This document shows, piece by piece, positions 4,673 through 24,507 of a stretch of DNA of 26,804 nucleotides. Source of the stretch: a virus; IMG/VR virus record IMGVR_UViG_3300029448_000291, positions 1 through 26,804 of that record; one strand, written 5' to 3'. Within the stretch, counting starts at the first letter, position 1. Every line of letters starts with the position of its first letter. The position numbers and the translations under genes were made by a program. The notes under the pieces were generated by a model. The model was given only the letters and a program-made list of their open reading frames with translations. It did not search any database and was not told the DNA's origin.

Positions 4673-7600
4673 CTATCGTCTTGGAAATAATTCAGTTGGA
4701 ACATCTATCGAAGAATCTGTTCCATATCTATTTGCTCTTGTTATTCGTAATTGGTCGATATAACCTTTTAAACTTCTTGACCCACCAGATTGACCATAAC
4801 TACCGAAGTAAAAATCAGATGATACCGAAAGTGTGTAATCCGATGCTGTTCCTAAAGAACTTACTGTCGTGCCTGTGACTGCACCAGCATAAAGACGTAG
4901 AAGATTGCTTGAATTTCTAGTAAGTGCTAAGTAATACCATTGCCCTGATGACAAAGATTGAGCAACTTGAATTTGTGGAGTAGGTTCATTACCAACTTCC
5001 CACTCATTGCCATACCTTTGAATAATAAAACTTCCAGTATTTCTAACTATTGATTGATTTGTTGTATTTGGATTGTTTAAAAAGTAAACAAAAAATTCAA
5101 TAGTAAATTCTCCAGTTAATATGTTTACTGATTCTTGATTCATTCGTGTTCTGAGCGTTGTACCCTCGTCAAAAAATAAACTTCCCAAACCATTCTTTGA
5201 CCTTGACGAAGAAACCATAACTGTTTTTGAATTGTTGCCAGAATAATCTTGTTCAAAGTTACTAAACGTCATTCTTCCGCTTTGATCGTAAATACCAGCG
5301 TTATCAAAGTTATATAACATTTTTACGTTTGCTTGATTTCTAACTTCAGAACTCAGGGTTGCAGGACTTGTTCTTGGTATAAAATTTTCTGTGTAAACTG
5401 GTTCATTGCGAGTGAATCTTAGATCACAAAAATATCCATCTAATGAATAACCCCAACTACCAAAGTATTTATTCATTAAATAATTTGTATATGCACTACC
5501 AGAAGCCCATCCTTGTGTCCAGTTTGTTTGTTCATCAACTTTAACTCCGTTTCTGAACATTCTCAGAGTTTTGTTGTTTTCTAAATCATGCGTAATAGCA
5601 TAATGAATCCACTCCCCAACTTTCGCACTCTCATTGTCTTGTACATTACTTCCATGTCCAGATGATGGCGAATGGTCAAGTGCTAAAATTCCTGATGTAC
5701 TTAAATATCTTAATGACCATAAACTACCATCTTGTTCCCAATGTCGTTTCCACCCTGTTGGGTAAGTTTCTATGTACACCCAGTATTCAAAGCAAAAACT
5801 ATGGGTGTTCATCATGTCGAATTCATCAAAATTTCTATTTTGAATTTGAACACCATCATTTCCCCCATCAAAACTTATTGAGCCACCATGATTTTCCTTA
5901 CTGTAAGGAAAATTTTGTGAATCAATATTAAAAGGAGATTCAAACAAACATTTTGGGTGTCCACTTTTTATAAATAAATCTTTTTTTCCGTATGTTGCGT
6001 TGTTTATTAATCGGTTTGATTGGAACCCTAAGAACACAGTTTTTGAATCACTTTCAAGTGGACTTGTTGGAACAGTAACTGATGAAACTCCTGATCCTTT
6101 TTTTACCCTAAGATTTGATATGTAACCCTTAAAGTCATTGTTGCCTAAAGTATAACCAGACACTCCTATTACTGGTCGATCAGTATCTACAACATAACTT
6201 GCTGAATCTGAATAGTCAGAACCTTCTTGGCTACCATCAAGAAATAATCTGGTTGTTCCAGAAAGTCTTGATAAACAAACGTGATACCAACGTCCAACTG
6301 CTAGAGCAGTTGAACCAGTAATCATTGTTGTACCAGTATTAAAAATAATCAAAGTATTATTACTCTGAATCCTTATTCTTAATTTGTTACTGCCAGCACC
6401 TGACCGACTATCATACAAATCTTGAATTGAATCAACGATATTCAAACGTATAAACATTTCAATTTGAAAGTCGCTAGTACCAAAAGCAAAATCATCCCCA
6501 GACAACTTTACATAGTAATTATCTGTTGCACCTAAATAGAGTGACCAATATCCGTCAGGTAAATAAGGGCTGAAACTTGATAAACTTACCTCTTCATTAA
6601 AATATTTAACTTGTCTGCTTGGAAATGCTTTGTCGATCATTCCTGTGTTTCTTGCACCGCCAGAAAACTGACAGGTTAACATTTCGGTATTTGAATCTGC
6701 TGTTCTTGGAATTGTTGGAACTCTATCTAATCCTGATGCCGATTCAACTTTTACATCTGCAATATGACCTTGAAACTCATCTCCATAATTAGTGTAAGAA
6801 TTTCCACCTATACCAAAAATTGTTCGTGAGATGTTGTCGCTATAAGTAAATGAACCAGCTTGTTTACCATTCATCTTGACATAACAAGTCGTACCTTTTC
6901 GCCTTAATTGGATGAAGTTCCAATTAAATTCATTAGCCATAATACTTCCAGCATTTAATTGATAACCAGCCGTGTACATGACTTGATAGCCAGTAGCATT
7001 TACTCCAAATCCAAATGCACCAGCAACACTCTCATTTGAACCCCTAAATGAAATAACGTAATCATTACTTGCAAAGGCTTGTCCATAAATCCAAAGACTA
7101 ATTTGAAAATCCCCAGTACCAATAGCATTTACTAAGTGTGCTTGTGCGTGACTACCTACTGCTCCAGTGTTATACATACTTCCGTCATTTACATCTCTTC
7201 TTGTATAATCTTCTCCATTTATTATCTTCCCACCCATGCCTGAATGGGCAGTACAGTAATAGTTTAAATCTGGTGTACTTGTAGTAGGTTTGTATTCTAA
7301 GTAAGCACCAGATTGACCTTGTGTTCCTGACACAGTTACATTTGTTGAATATATAGAACCATCTGGAACAGAAGAAAATGGAACAGTTGTTGTTCCAGTT
7401 GTTGGCGTTGCTCTTTCTTCCAAAGGTTTATTTAGTCCAGAGTTATCCTGATTTAAACTTGAACTCTGACAACAAAGTAAAACTGTCATTGCATGAGGTT
7501 GTGTTGGAGTTGTTGGCGGTGTGTATGTTGTTCCGTCTGGATATTTACAGTGACCATTTATAATATGGAAATTTGAAATGCTACCGACAAACGCTGAAGA

Positions 7601-10423
7601 TGTAAATGCACCAGTTTGTCCAATCGCAAAATATTCACTTGGTTCTGCATTGTAGTCGTCTGTTGCTGTTTGTCTTTGAACACCCCCTTGATAAATCCGT
7701 ACAGTCCCACTCTGTCGAACAACTGCAACGTGAGTCCATGTATTCTGTGCAAGTGCTACTCCTGATGTCGCTATAGCACCGCCATCAGAATAAATAACAA
7801 CATATTCGTTTGCATCTTTATAAATCTGAAAACTTGTACTTGCACCCGCTCCGTTGCTAGGTGCATCTCCACAAAGACATTTTAATCCTGTTGTTGTTGG
7901 ATAAACCCAAAACTCAACTGTGTAGTCATTGTGTGAGAAATGGAAATCAGGATGGTGTGATGTTAATAAACCCTCTGTTCCATCAAATGCCGTAGCATAA
8001 TAACCATCTTGTTTTGAGTGACTGCCATCTATTGTTTCTGATAATTTAAATGGGTGTGTTGCAGTGGTTGAATCACTTAAGTCAAAACGATACGTTACTC
8101 CTGACATATGTGCCAATGTCTTACTTGCAACCGATTCATTATTAAATAAAAATTTATTCCCACCAGCAATACTTGCAACAGTCACTTTTATTGTTTCTCT
8201 TGTAACAACTTCTGTAGCTGTTGGTTCTGAGAATGGAATACTTGTACTGGAAAATGGTTCATCAACTTTTGCAATTATATGTGGAGAAGATGAATTATCT
8301 TTTGTTACTCCATAGGATTGACACGTTAATAAACCTGTATTCGTAACTGCTGTTAGTGGTGTAGTTGGAACAGTAATTGAAGTGTTGGCAACTCCGTAAA
8401 TGTCAGTTCCTTTAACAACTCTAACATTAGAAATACAGCCATTAAAAGCACCAGAGGTTGAAGAGTATGAACCAATCAGAACATTACCAGAAGTTGACCC
8501 TATAGTCGTAACACCAGAATACCCTGTCCAGTTACCTGACTTAGTAGAAACTCTTGTGCCATTTAACCAAAGAGAAACATTATTACTTCCATCTCGTCCT
8601 AAAGCAACGTGATACCATTTGCCAGTTGTAATTACATCATTACTAGTTTTTACAACATCAACACCGCTTATTAATGTTAAATATTTATTTGTTACGTTAA
8701 TTTGAAAATAAATTTGATGTGTGCCGTTTGTTGGAAATGAGAGAATAACTGGACTTTCTCCATCAGCAACAATCGTATCTGCTTTAAACCAAAACTCTAC
8801 AGTCAAAGCACCATCAAGCACAATTGCAGATGTCGGAGTAACTGCTAAATTATTACCATTCGTTCCCACAAAATCAGTTGAAAAATATCTATCTGGTCTA
8901 GCCAGTAAATCATTGTCAGAACGATAAGGATTAAAAGCATTTGTAATTGCATCTGGTTCTGTGCCATTGGCTGTTATCGTGTGTTGACTTGCTGAATTAT
9001 CAATTATGGTTGTGGATTGTAAACATAACAATCCTGTACTTGATGTATTCTCCAATGGCAAAGTCGGAACTGTAGAAGTTGTTATTCCAACACCTTTTTG
9101 TACTCTAAGATTAGACATAAAAAATGGCATCTGTCCTTCTGAGCCATGATTACAAATATCTAAATTCCCCGCTGTTCCATTAAAGTTTGTTGAGTTACTT
9201 ACTGATTTTTGCAACGCTCCATCTACAAATAATCGTATTGTTCCTGATGCCCTTGAACATTCCATAAAATGCCATCTGTTACGAGTCGGAGCAGATGTCG
9301 TAAATATATCTGCATTGTTATGTGCCGATTGCACATGAATAAGTCCGTTACTATCATGTGAGATAGCAAAATATCCTGTTGTACCACCTGTCATGCAGTA
9401 AATTCCACCACCTGTCTTGTATTGTATGTATATCCAAAATGAAACTGTAAAATCCCCTGTGCCAAACTGAAAGTCTGCATGATTAGGAATGCTAAGATAA
9501 TCATTTCCATCGAAATGAACTGAATGGTATCCATCAGGGGAAAACAATCTACTGTTGATATTAAATGGATTAAATGTTCTTACGGCTGGACTAAAAGCTT
9601 GTGTAGAAAAAACTTCATAAGATGGTGCTAATTCAATTGATTGGTCGTTAAAATTATTTCCCAGACACGCTAATATTTTTGTTCCTGTTTCATGCGTCAG
9701 AGGTTTGCTTGGCATAGAACCATCTGATATTGTTCCTACTCGCCACCGCACATTCGACAAGAAACCATTTAAAGCCTGTGACGATTCTCCGTTATAACCA
9801 ATTCTCCATTCTACTGAAGCATTAATAGTCACATTAGTCCAAGAAGATGATGCAACTGATTTGCCATCAGCAAACAACTCCACGTTACCATCGGTTTTTC
9901 TAAAACATAAGAATGTCCATTTTTTTTCTGGTAACCTGTAATCGCCAGAGTACCAAGACTGTGTTCCAAACCCATTTGTGTGTATGTGAAGTCGTCCAGT
10001 AGGTTCTAAAATGAACATGAATTTTGCTGTTCCACCTCCACCCCCAGAAAAACCAAATATCCCAGAAGTGCCAGATTTAATTTTCCAGTAAATGAAACAT
10101 TCAAAAGAAAAATCCCCAGCTTGTGGATATAAATATGTTTGACTAGGAATTTTTATATATGGAACAGTCTCTCCAAACTCAACCGAATAGTATCCATTTT
10201 TCTCGTAAGGACTAAACCCTGTTCCTACAGGTCGTGTATCACTTTCATCGCCATTAGAACCATGAGCATCTATTCTGGTCACTTTACTAGAAGCATCATT
10301 AAAAACATTATAAGAAACTTCATCTTCGGAATGATGTGCTTCAGGTTGAATCAATAAAGATACATCTTTAAAGTTTGGGTCTGTATCGTCTGACTTTGGA
10401 GCAGAACCTTTAATTAATGGCAT
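4673..10423 (-). CDS. Giant virion surface protein with eight LamG/ConA-like domains and a split cupredoxin-like domain
   Basis: 1916 residues. Eight LamG-like (concanavalin A-like) units lie at residues ~73-232, 296-446, 509-675, 804-965, 1078-1235, 1289-1448, 1512-1680 and 1740-1905. Each has an opening DGYxSxxFDG, a strand of the type GTGDFTVSFWIY, a middle W-x-H/F-x-A/E-x-x-R, L(F/Y)xDG, and a closing (I)SNxRVxKG followed by VPTxPL and LLxCQS. LamG domains usually bind glycans or proteins, so cell-surface adhesion or capsid/tail decoration is likely. Residues ~740-803 and ~1018-1070 resemble the two halves of a cupredoxin (H790; C1057, H1060, M1063) with LamG unit 4 between them. The ribosome site AGGA lies 7-8 nt before ATG. 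It is the largest gene here and sits between the small fibre genes and the tail chaperone. Confidence 0.85.
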   Translation of the reverse strand: MPLIKGSAPKSDDTDPNFKDVSLLIQPEAHHSEDEVSYNVFNDASSKVTRIDAHGSNGDESDTRPVGTGFSPYEKNGYYSVEFGETVPYIKIPSQTYLYPQAGDFSFECFIYWKIKSGTSGIFGFSGGGGGTAKFMFILEPTGRLHIHTNGFGTQSWYSGDYRLPEKKWTFLCFRKTDGNVELFADGKSVASSSWTNVTINASVEWRIGYNGESSQALNGFLSNVRWRVGTISDGSMPSKPLTHETGTKILACLGNNFNDQSIELAPSYEVFSTQAFSPAVRTFNPFNINSRLFSPDGYHSVHFDGNDYLSIPNHADFQFGTGDFTVSFWIYIQYKTGGGIYCMTGGTTGYFAISHDSNGLIHVQSAHNNADIFTTSAPTRNRWHFMECSRASGTIRLFVDGALQKSVSNSTNFNGTAGNLDICNHGSEGQMPFFMSNLRVQKGVGITTSTVPTLPLENTSSTGLLCLQSTTIIDNSASQHTITANGTEPDAITNAFNPYRSDNDLLARPDRYFSTDFVGTNGNNLAVTPTSAIVLDGALTVEFWFKADTIVADGESPVILSFPTNGTHQIYFQINVTNKYLTLISGVDVVKTSNDVITTGKWYHVALGRDGSNNVSLWLNGTRVSTKSGNWTGYSGVTTIGSTSGNVLIGSYSSTSGAFNGCISNVRVVKGTDIYGVANTSITVPTTPLTAVTNTGLLTCQSYGVTKDNSSSPHIIAKVDEPFSSTSIPFSEPTATEVVTRETIKVTVASIAGGNKFLFNNESVASKTLAHMSGVTYRFDLSDSTTATHPFKLSETIDGSHSKQDGYYATAFDGTEGLLTSHHPDFHFSHNDYTVEFWVYPTTTGLKCLCGDAPSNGAGASTSFQIYKDANEYVVIYSDGGAIATSGVALAQNTWTHVAVVRQSGTVRIYQGGVQRQTATDDYNAEPSEYFAIGQTGAFTSSAFVGSISNFHIINGHCKYPDGTTYTPPTTPTQPHAMTVLLCCQSSSLNQDNSGLNKPLEERATPTTGTTTVPFSSVPDGSIYSTNVTVSGTQGQSGAYLEYKPTTSTPDLNYYCTAHSGMGGKIINGEDYTRRDVNDGSMYNTGAVGSHAQAHLVNAIGTGDFQISLWIYGQAFASNDYVISFRGSNESVAGAFGFGVNATGYQVMYTAGYQLNAGSIMANEFNWNFIQLRRKGTTCYVKMNGKQAGSFTYSDNISRTIFGIGGNSYTNYGDEFQGHIADVKVESASGLDRVPTIPRTADSNTEMLTCQFSGGARNTGMIDKAFPSRQVKYFNEEVSLSSFSPYLPDGYWSLYLGATDNYYVKLSGDDFAFGTSDFQIEMFIRLNIVDSIQDLYDSRSGAGSNKLRIRIQSNNTLIIFNTGTTMITGSTALAVGRWYHVCLSRLSGTTRLFLDGSQEGSDYSDSASYVVDTDRPVIGVSGYTLGNNDFKGYISNLRVKKGSGVSSVTVPTSPLESDSKTVFLGFQSNRLINNATYGKKDLFIKSGHPKCLFESPFNIDSQNFPYSKENHGGSISFDGGNDGVQIQNRNFDEFDMMNTHSFCFEYWVYIETYPTGWKRHWEQDGSLWSLRYLSTSGILALDHSPSSGHGSNVQDNESAKVGEWIHYAITHDLENNKTLRMFRNGVKVDEQTNWTQGWASGSAYTNYLMNKYFGSWGYSLDGYFCDLRFTRNEPVYTENFIPRTSPATLSSEVRNQANVKMLYNFDNAGIYDQSGRMTFSNFEQDYSGNNSKTVMVSSSRSKNGLGSLFFDEGTTLRTRMNQESVNILTGEFTIEFFVYFLNNPNTTNQSIVRNTGSFIIQRYGNEWEVGNEPTPQIQVAQSLSSGQWYYLALTRNSSNLLRLYAGAVTGTTVSSLGTASDYTLSVSSDFYFGSYGQSGGSRSLKGYIDQLRITRANRYGTDSSIDVPTELFPRR
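4709..10207 (-). repeat. Eight-copy LamG domain array (protein-level repeat)
   Basis: The coding sequence repeats at a domain period of about 160-290 residues, including linkers. Copies are strongly diverged at DNA level, so this is an old duplication series rather than a recent tandem repeat. Linkers also repeat: most units end with a VPTxPL stretch, a CQS/CLQS motif and DNS or NN before the next DGY start. Confidence 0.8.
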
Positions 10424-24350: not shown

Positions 24351-24386
24351 GAGAAGCAAGGGCAACTGAAAGGTTGCCCAAGCTTC
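24351..24386 (+). terminator. Strong hairpin after the 174-aa gene
   Basis: GAAGC, AA, GGGCAAC, loop TGAAAG, GTTGCCC, AA, GCTTC gives 7 bp plus 5 bp around a symmetrical AA/AA internal loop. No T-run follows, so it may be a factor-dependent terminator or an RNA-stabilising end rather than a classical intrinsic terminator. Confidence 0.6.
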
Positions 24387-24395
24387 AGCCTTCCA

Positions 24396-24455
24396 GCATT
24401 TGGTAGCTAAGACTATGCACACAGCAATTAGTAGCTAGGACTATGCACATAAAAT
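24396..24455 (+). promoter_or_regulatory. Element B, copies 1 and 2 in tandem (core GACTATGCACA)
   Basis: Two copies start at 24396 and 24424, a 28-nt period. Shared parts are TAGCTA and GACTATGCACA; copy 2 also has GCAATTAGT upstream. The pair lies after a strong hairpin and 65 nt before the next operon. The AATTAG...CTATG layout is loosely like promoters of single-subunit phage RNA polymerases; a promoter role is inferred. Confidence 0.55.
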
Positions 24456-24475
24456 TGCATGTTACATCCAGTGTG

Positions 24476-24507
24476 TTACTATCAATAACAGTTACTAACA
24501 ATAACAA
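24476..24507 (+). repeat. Tandem 16-nt repeat in the leader of the 80-aa gene
   Basis: TTACTATCAATAACAG is followed directly by TTACTAACAATAACAA (14 of 16 identical). It ends 12 nt before the start codon. It could be a protein-binding site or just leader sequence. Confidence 0.55.

Follow-up and report, generated by a model that had tools for sequence, protein, structure and literature searches.

The minus-strand open reading frame (ORF) at positions 4673 to 10423 of the window, by which we mean the whole analyzed stretch of 26,804 nucleotides, part of a 28,977-base virus record, encodes a 1916-residue tail protein with eight LamG domains and a single cupredoxin domain that is interrupted by 221 residues. 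Sequence comparisons confirmed that residues 744 to 803 and residues 1025 to 1067 are the two halves of one domain, and the fourth LamG of the eight lies between them together with an inter-LamG linker. The most probable reading, and one that we hold with fairly good confidence, is that of a receptor-binding tail array in which a LamG unit stands in frame in a loop of a cupredoxin that acts as a copper-binding scaffold.

Two halves of one domain

The ORF is flanked by a tail-fibre gene upstream and a Phage_tail_APC chaperone gene downstream, and the other minus-strand genes in the window include those for the terminase large subunit, the portal, the major head protein, tail fibres, and an internal virion protein. 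The portal belongs to PF23899 (SU10_portal), and its best phage matches are the Rhizobium RHph_TM phages, followed by Roseobacter CRP and Pelagibacter HTVC033P phages (27 to 34% identity across these matches). The virus would be a podovirus with a portal resembling those of Roseobacter phages CRP-2 and CRP-3 and of HTVC033P. PF13385 matches the 1916-residue protein with 343.7 bits against a cut-off of 27.6 (E value, 1.6e-103) in eight stretches, the best of which spans residues 824 to 956. The gene context and the LamG array indicate binding to the host surface, and the product is best described as a putative modular receptor-binding tail protein made of eight lectin-type LamG domains and one plastocyanin/azurin-type cupredoxin module.

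The uninterrupted form of the cupredoxin domain in other marine phages is about 105 aa long, and intact copies were gathered from IMG/VR, GenBank phages, and genome contigs. A hidden Markov model (HMM) was derived from 139 unique intact domains of phage and viral-contig loci, excluding the window, and was split at the loop. The N-half model found residues 744 to 803 (positions 8015 to 8194, minus strand) at profile positions 1 to 58 with 63.3 bits and an independent E value of 7.5e-18, and the C-half model found residues 1025 to 1067 (positions 7223 to 7351, minus strand) at its positions 1 to 43 with 67.8 bits and an independent E value of 3.4e-19. Each half occurs once in the protein, the two being in order, complementary in profile, and separated by 221 residues. 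Residues 733 to 806 and 1015 to 1075, each used alone as a tblastn query, matched adjoining segments of one protein both in Synechococcus phage S-B68 (118190 to 118366, then 118373 to 118507) and in Pelagibacter phage Baldr (24213 to 24383, then 24384 to 24503). The first-pass annotation had proposed that the halves join into one continuous domain, and this adjacency and the split-model E values bear it out. Among the loci searched with the HMMs, paired halves are 0 to 6 residues apart in 174 cases; the exceptions are the window, with its gap of 221 residues (repeated by its own copy in the locus set, L001), and one environmental phage locus, L167, with a gap of 102. The uninterrupted marine phage tail domain (S-B68, S-TIM5/S-TIM66, Baldr, and Mosig; PHROGs 30742, 27200, and 693) has homologous halves and the same ligands as the 1916-residue protein but a short loop in place of the 221 extra residues.

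Structure prediction gave a similar picture. AlphaFold2 was run on residues 738 to 1078 with an alignment of 30 intact cupredoxin homologues from IMG/VR loci, and both halves, which make up the first ~60 residues and residues ~290 to ~330 of the model, came out mostly with pLDDT above 90 and block means mostly between 86 and 98 (about 86 to 98 for the N-terminal and about 91 to 98 for the C-terminal half). The LamG segment was of low confidence because the alignment contained no LamG homologues. An intact homologue was predicted with a pLDDT of 95.1 and a pTM of 0.87 (L017), and its strand order is the same as that of the split halves; two separate, unrelated folds, an outcome that would have spoken against the proposed joining, were not seen. 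Mixed alignments of the window, intact cupredoxins, and LamG homologues were misaligned by MAFFT and were dropped.

The predicted copper site and the identity of the fold

Four residues form the predicted type-1 copper set, all encoded on the minus strand: H790 as the first ligand (codon CAC, positions 8054 to 8056), C1057 as the thiolate ligand (TGT, 7253 to 7255), H1060 (CAT, 7244 to 7246), and M1063 as the axial ligand (ATG, 7235 to 7237). All motifs, residue numbers, and codons first noted for this ORF were found in their places, including the C-x2-H-x2-M spacing at C1057, H1060, and M1063. The Cys ends the penultimate strand and is followed, in the loop that leads to the last strand, by the second His and the Met; the order His, Cys, His, Met, with one C-terminal loop holding the last three, is that of type-1 sites. 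The complete set is present in all 139 intact domains, a figure to which the search patterns themselves contributed at the Cys and the second His. When 37 diverse intact homologues were aligned by MAFFT without constraint, the H, C, H, and M of all 37 fell on H790, C1057, H1060, and M1063. The invariance of the ligands in intact members suggests that metal binding matters there, and retention of all four in the 1916-residue protein makes copper binding by its split cupredoxin likely, as judged from sequence.

Assignment to the cupredoxins draws mainly on Pfam, in which some relatives pass the Copper-bind model, and more weakly on the top ranks in Foldseek, and in this way the cupredoxin-like identity proposed at the outset was supported. 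Three family members, all homologues in marine bacteria, exceed the PF00127 Copper-bind cut-off of 21.2 bits (L313, 22.4; L317, 24.5; L312, 27.8); 3 of 30 phage members match the model weakly (best E value, 0.0026), and the window halves alone stay below the curated cut-off. A Foldseek search of the PDB with the intact-homologue model placed rusticyanin and amicyanin among the top matches (probability, 0.91 to 0.97; E value, 0.04 to 0.1; TM score, about 0.5) and immunoglobulin-like sandwiches below them, with no match having an E value below 0.001. This backing for a cupredoxin fold is moderate, being supportive but not conclusive. The same kind of search with the whole split model, with its low-confidence middle, returned nothing useful. 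At the sequence level, phmmer and hmmsearch against the PDB found only weak antibody matches and pseudoazurin at an E value of 0.71, and hhalign gave no significant match (probability, 3%) between the domain and a profile of three pseudoazurin-like sequences.

The phage domain shares with PF00127 proteins such as rusticyanin and amicyanin the ligand order H...C-x2-H-x2-M and the position of the last ligands, in the loop that joins the final two strands. It differs from them in that most phage members, the 1916-residue protein included, score below the curated cut-off that some relatives exceed, and in its setting, a tail protein where it is interrupted by LamG. The type-1 copper fold also occurs in phage genomes as cyanophage plastocyanin, PetE, but petE is a separate photosynthesis gene of 324 to 369 nt, an auxiliary metabolic gene and not a domain of a tail protein (PMC3037559). 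A role as a classical soluble electron carrier is improbable for the cupredoxin of the 1916-residue protein.

The LamG unit and other modules in the same loop

The insertion comprises residues 804 to 1024 (positions 7352 to 8014, minus strand). It holds the PF13385 stretch at 824 to 956, which has LamG relatives in phages, and a linker of the kind that precedes the next LamG at other places in the array (..PFSSVPDGS..). On its two sides stand ..DGSHS and YSTNVT, and at this point of the loop intact members have only a few residues, for example GGGSE; their loop from the His strand to the YTTGV strand is short, with 11 to 20 residues counted from the His. A LamG with its linker, placed after GSHS and before the YTTGV-type strand, is what had been described from the sequence at first, and it was recovered here. 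Compared with LamG/concanavalin A-like lectin arrays in general (PF13385), the inserted unit is an ordinary member; what differs is that one unit stands inside another domain instead of beside it. Among about 217 cupredoxin-bearing ORFs, just 3 others contain LamG, and in none of them does it lie inside the domain. The hexamer AGATGG is found at both ends of the LamG cassette (8004 to 8009 and 7359 to 7364) and once more where the N half ends (8025 to 8030). These copies could be microhomology; a recombination scar is not claimed, since the hexamer encodes a recurring DG motif and occurs 29 times in the window against 11 expected.

Is this loop interrupted in other phages? A Foldseek match to Synechococcus phage ACG-2014e, extending over 175 columns for a 108-residue query, pointed to a second nested family. 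In virion proteins of T4-like cyanophages that match PHROG 6005 (ACG-2014e gp086, S-PM2p089, S-RSM4, Syn1, and S-RIM44), the same domain is interrupted in the same loop by a beta module of ~70 aa, which is not homologous to the LamG of the window; the architecture is alike, but the inserted family is different. The ~70-aa insert is present in 46 phage records, among them S-PM2, S-RSM4, Syn1, and S-RIM44, and the nested domain of ACG-2014e is at L301:2381-2953. A third group, a tail-fibre family of environmental phages (L167, at L167:3089-3751, and L304 to L308), has at this site a module of ~100 aa that is found in baseplate-wedge proteins; unlike the 1916-residue protein, this group has lost its copper ligands. 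In the window, in the L301/S-PM2 group, and in the L167 group alike, a foreign module separates the strand after the His from the YTTGV strand. This makes the loop a recurrent insertion site, with at least three unrelated inserts seen, a count of modules and not of independent events. The architecture had been called unusual in the first-pass annotation, and this holds for the nesting of LamG, found only in this protein, but not for nesting at this loop as such, which involves at least two unrelated modules elsewhere. LamG in this loop has been seen only here, and the recurring pattern of loop insertion is apparently undescribed: our search of the open-access literature found no paper on cupredoxins or blue copper in phage tail or structural proteins or on domain insertion into cupredoxins, which does not prove that the pattern is unpublished. 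Two further divergent domains of this type occur in one ORF of Synechococcus phage S-RIM8 (L015; stop-to-stop residues 338 to 425 and 675 to 730), one with H...C-x2-H-x2-M and an enlarged loop and the other with only the N half recognizable.

The ligands of these nested relatives bear on whether the site of the 1916-residue protein still binds metal. All four are kept in 3 of the 9 cyanophage versions examined (ACG-2014e, S-RSM4, and S-RIM44), while the other six have lost at least one and kept the fold and the insert, the versions of S-PM2 and S-B43 being without Met; C, H, and M are all gone in L304 to L307. Such losses in most nested cyanophage versions suggest that no metal is needed for the fold to act as a scaffold, and they speak for a reading in which the halves of the 1916-residue protein, too, form a purely structural beta-sandwich with relic ligand residues and no copper. 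We consider this unlikely, since the protein itself has all four ligands in the canonical C-x2-H-x2-M arrangement that is invariant in the 139 intact relatives, and a different fibre, encoded at the same gene position in relatives of the virus, retains H...C-x2-H-x2-M. This fibre, which is glycine-rich, is found in L179, L180, and L185, three of the contigs whose head protein is similar; it follows the homologue of g154, and in L179 and L185 it precedes the internal virion protein gene; the fibres of all three (15965 to 16483 in L179) contain a divergent, weakly matching H...C-x2-H-x2-M domain. L178 and L188 have LamG arrays at that gene position, the one in L178 being cut by the contig end. 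The copper-type module may therefore be a lasting feature of the gene position while the scaffold around it changes.

A proposed scaffold for LamG and the wider occurrence of the domain

In the scaffold reading that we favor, an in-frame insertion would have placed one LamG with its linker in a surface loop of the cupredoxin, between the post-first-His strand and the YSTNV strand, and the two halves would still close into one beta-sandwich with a complete H-C-H-M type-1 set. Most likely, the cupredoxin would then be a compact, copper-binding, and possibly copper-stabilized module from which the LamG projects as a side branch, and the side-branch LamG would bind sugars of the host surface. The presence of copper in the site, the binding of sugars, the geometry of the side branch, and the function of the 1916-residue protein are our inferences.

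We regard as very unlikely a redox-active copper site that works on the surface of the host while the phage attaches or enters, with host proteins of electron transfer or copper uptake as possible targets. In its favor are the complete set of type-1 ligands, conserved among the tail proteins of marine phages, and the occurrence of similar domains in proteins that marine bacteria secrete; against it, nested versions have often lost ligands, an argument that redox activity can be dispensed with. Given the readiness of LamG arrays to recombine, deletions from one repeat to another could plausibly have left remnants of two cupredoxin domains, each cut and folding separately or not at all; this is highly improbable given halves that are exactly complementary (profile positions 1 to 58 and then the remainder), occur once each and in order, and are confidently predicted by AlphaFold2 as strands of one domain. 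An assembly chimaera is just as improbable: LamG at this site is known from a single metagenomic contig, with no second instance of the nested form in IMG/VR, no close relative in a scan with the N half of the window, and only three matches, all unrelated, to a junction-specific DNA pattern over IMG/VR, but both junctions (8014/8015 and 7351/7352) preserve the reading frame and coincide with loop boundaries, third-position GC runs evenly through them (0.17 to 0.23 in all parts around the insertion), a composition without sign of recent foreign origin, and cultured isolates carry inserts in the same loop.

Beyond this protein, we offer only as a tentative idea, somewhat doubtful at present, that the cupredoxin is a general socket, a copper-stabilized scaffold whose post-first-His loop takes up varied adhesion modules and lets phages swap receptor-binding parts. 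If so, the loop would represent one route by which tail proteins gain binding modules. Few domain insertions leave a discontinuous metal site intact, and in this phage domain one and the same loop has received three unrelated modules. If the domain binds copper, type-1 copper sites would be present in many marine virions.

Among the tail proteins of marine phages the domain is widespread: it is found in 70 phage records at an E value of 1e-5 and in at least 595 IMG/VR stretches, and no Pfam model dedicated to it was found. Its description as common in marine phage proteins stands as far as phages are concerned, but the scope had to be widened, as marine bacterial genomes also carry it. Those encoding the same domain belong to SAR86, Pelagibacteraceae, and other gammaproteobacteria (loci including L276, L267, and L270); some of the bacterial versions are short proteins with a lipoprotein-like N terminus (..ACGGGGGG), and others are several hundred residues long.
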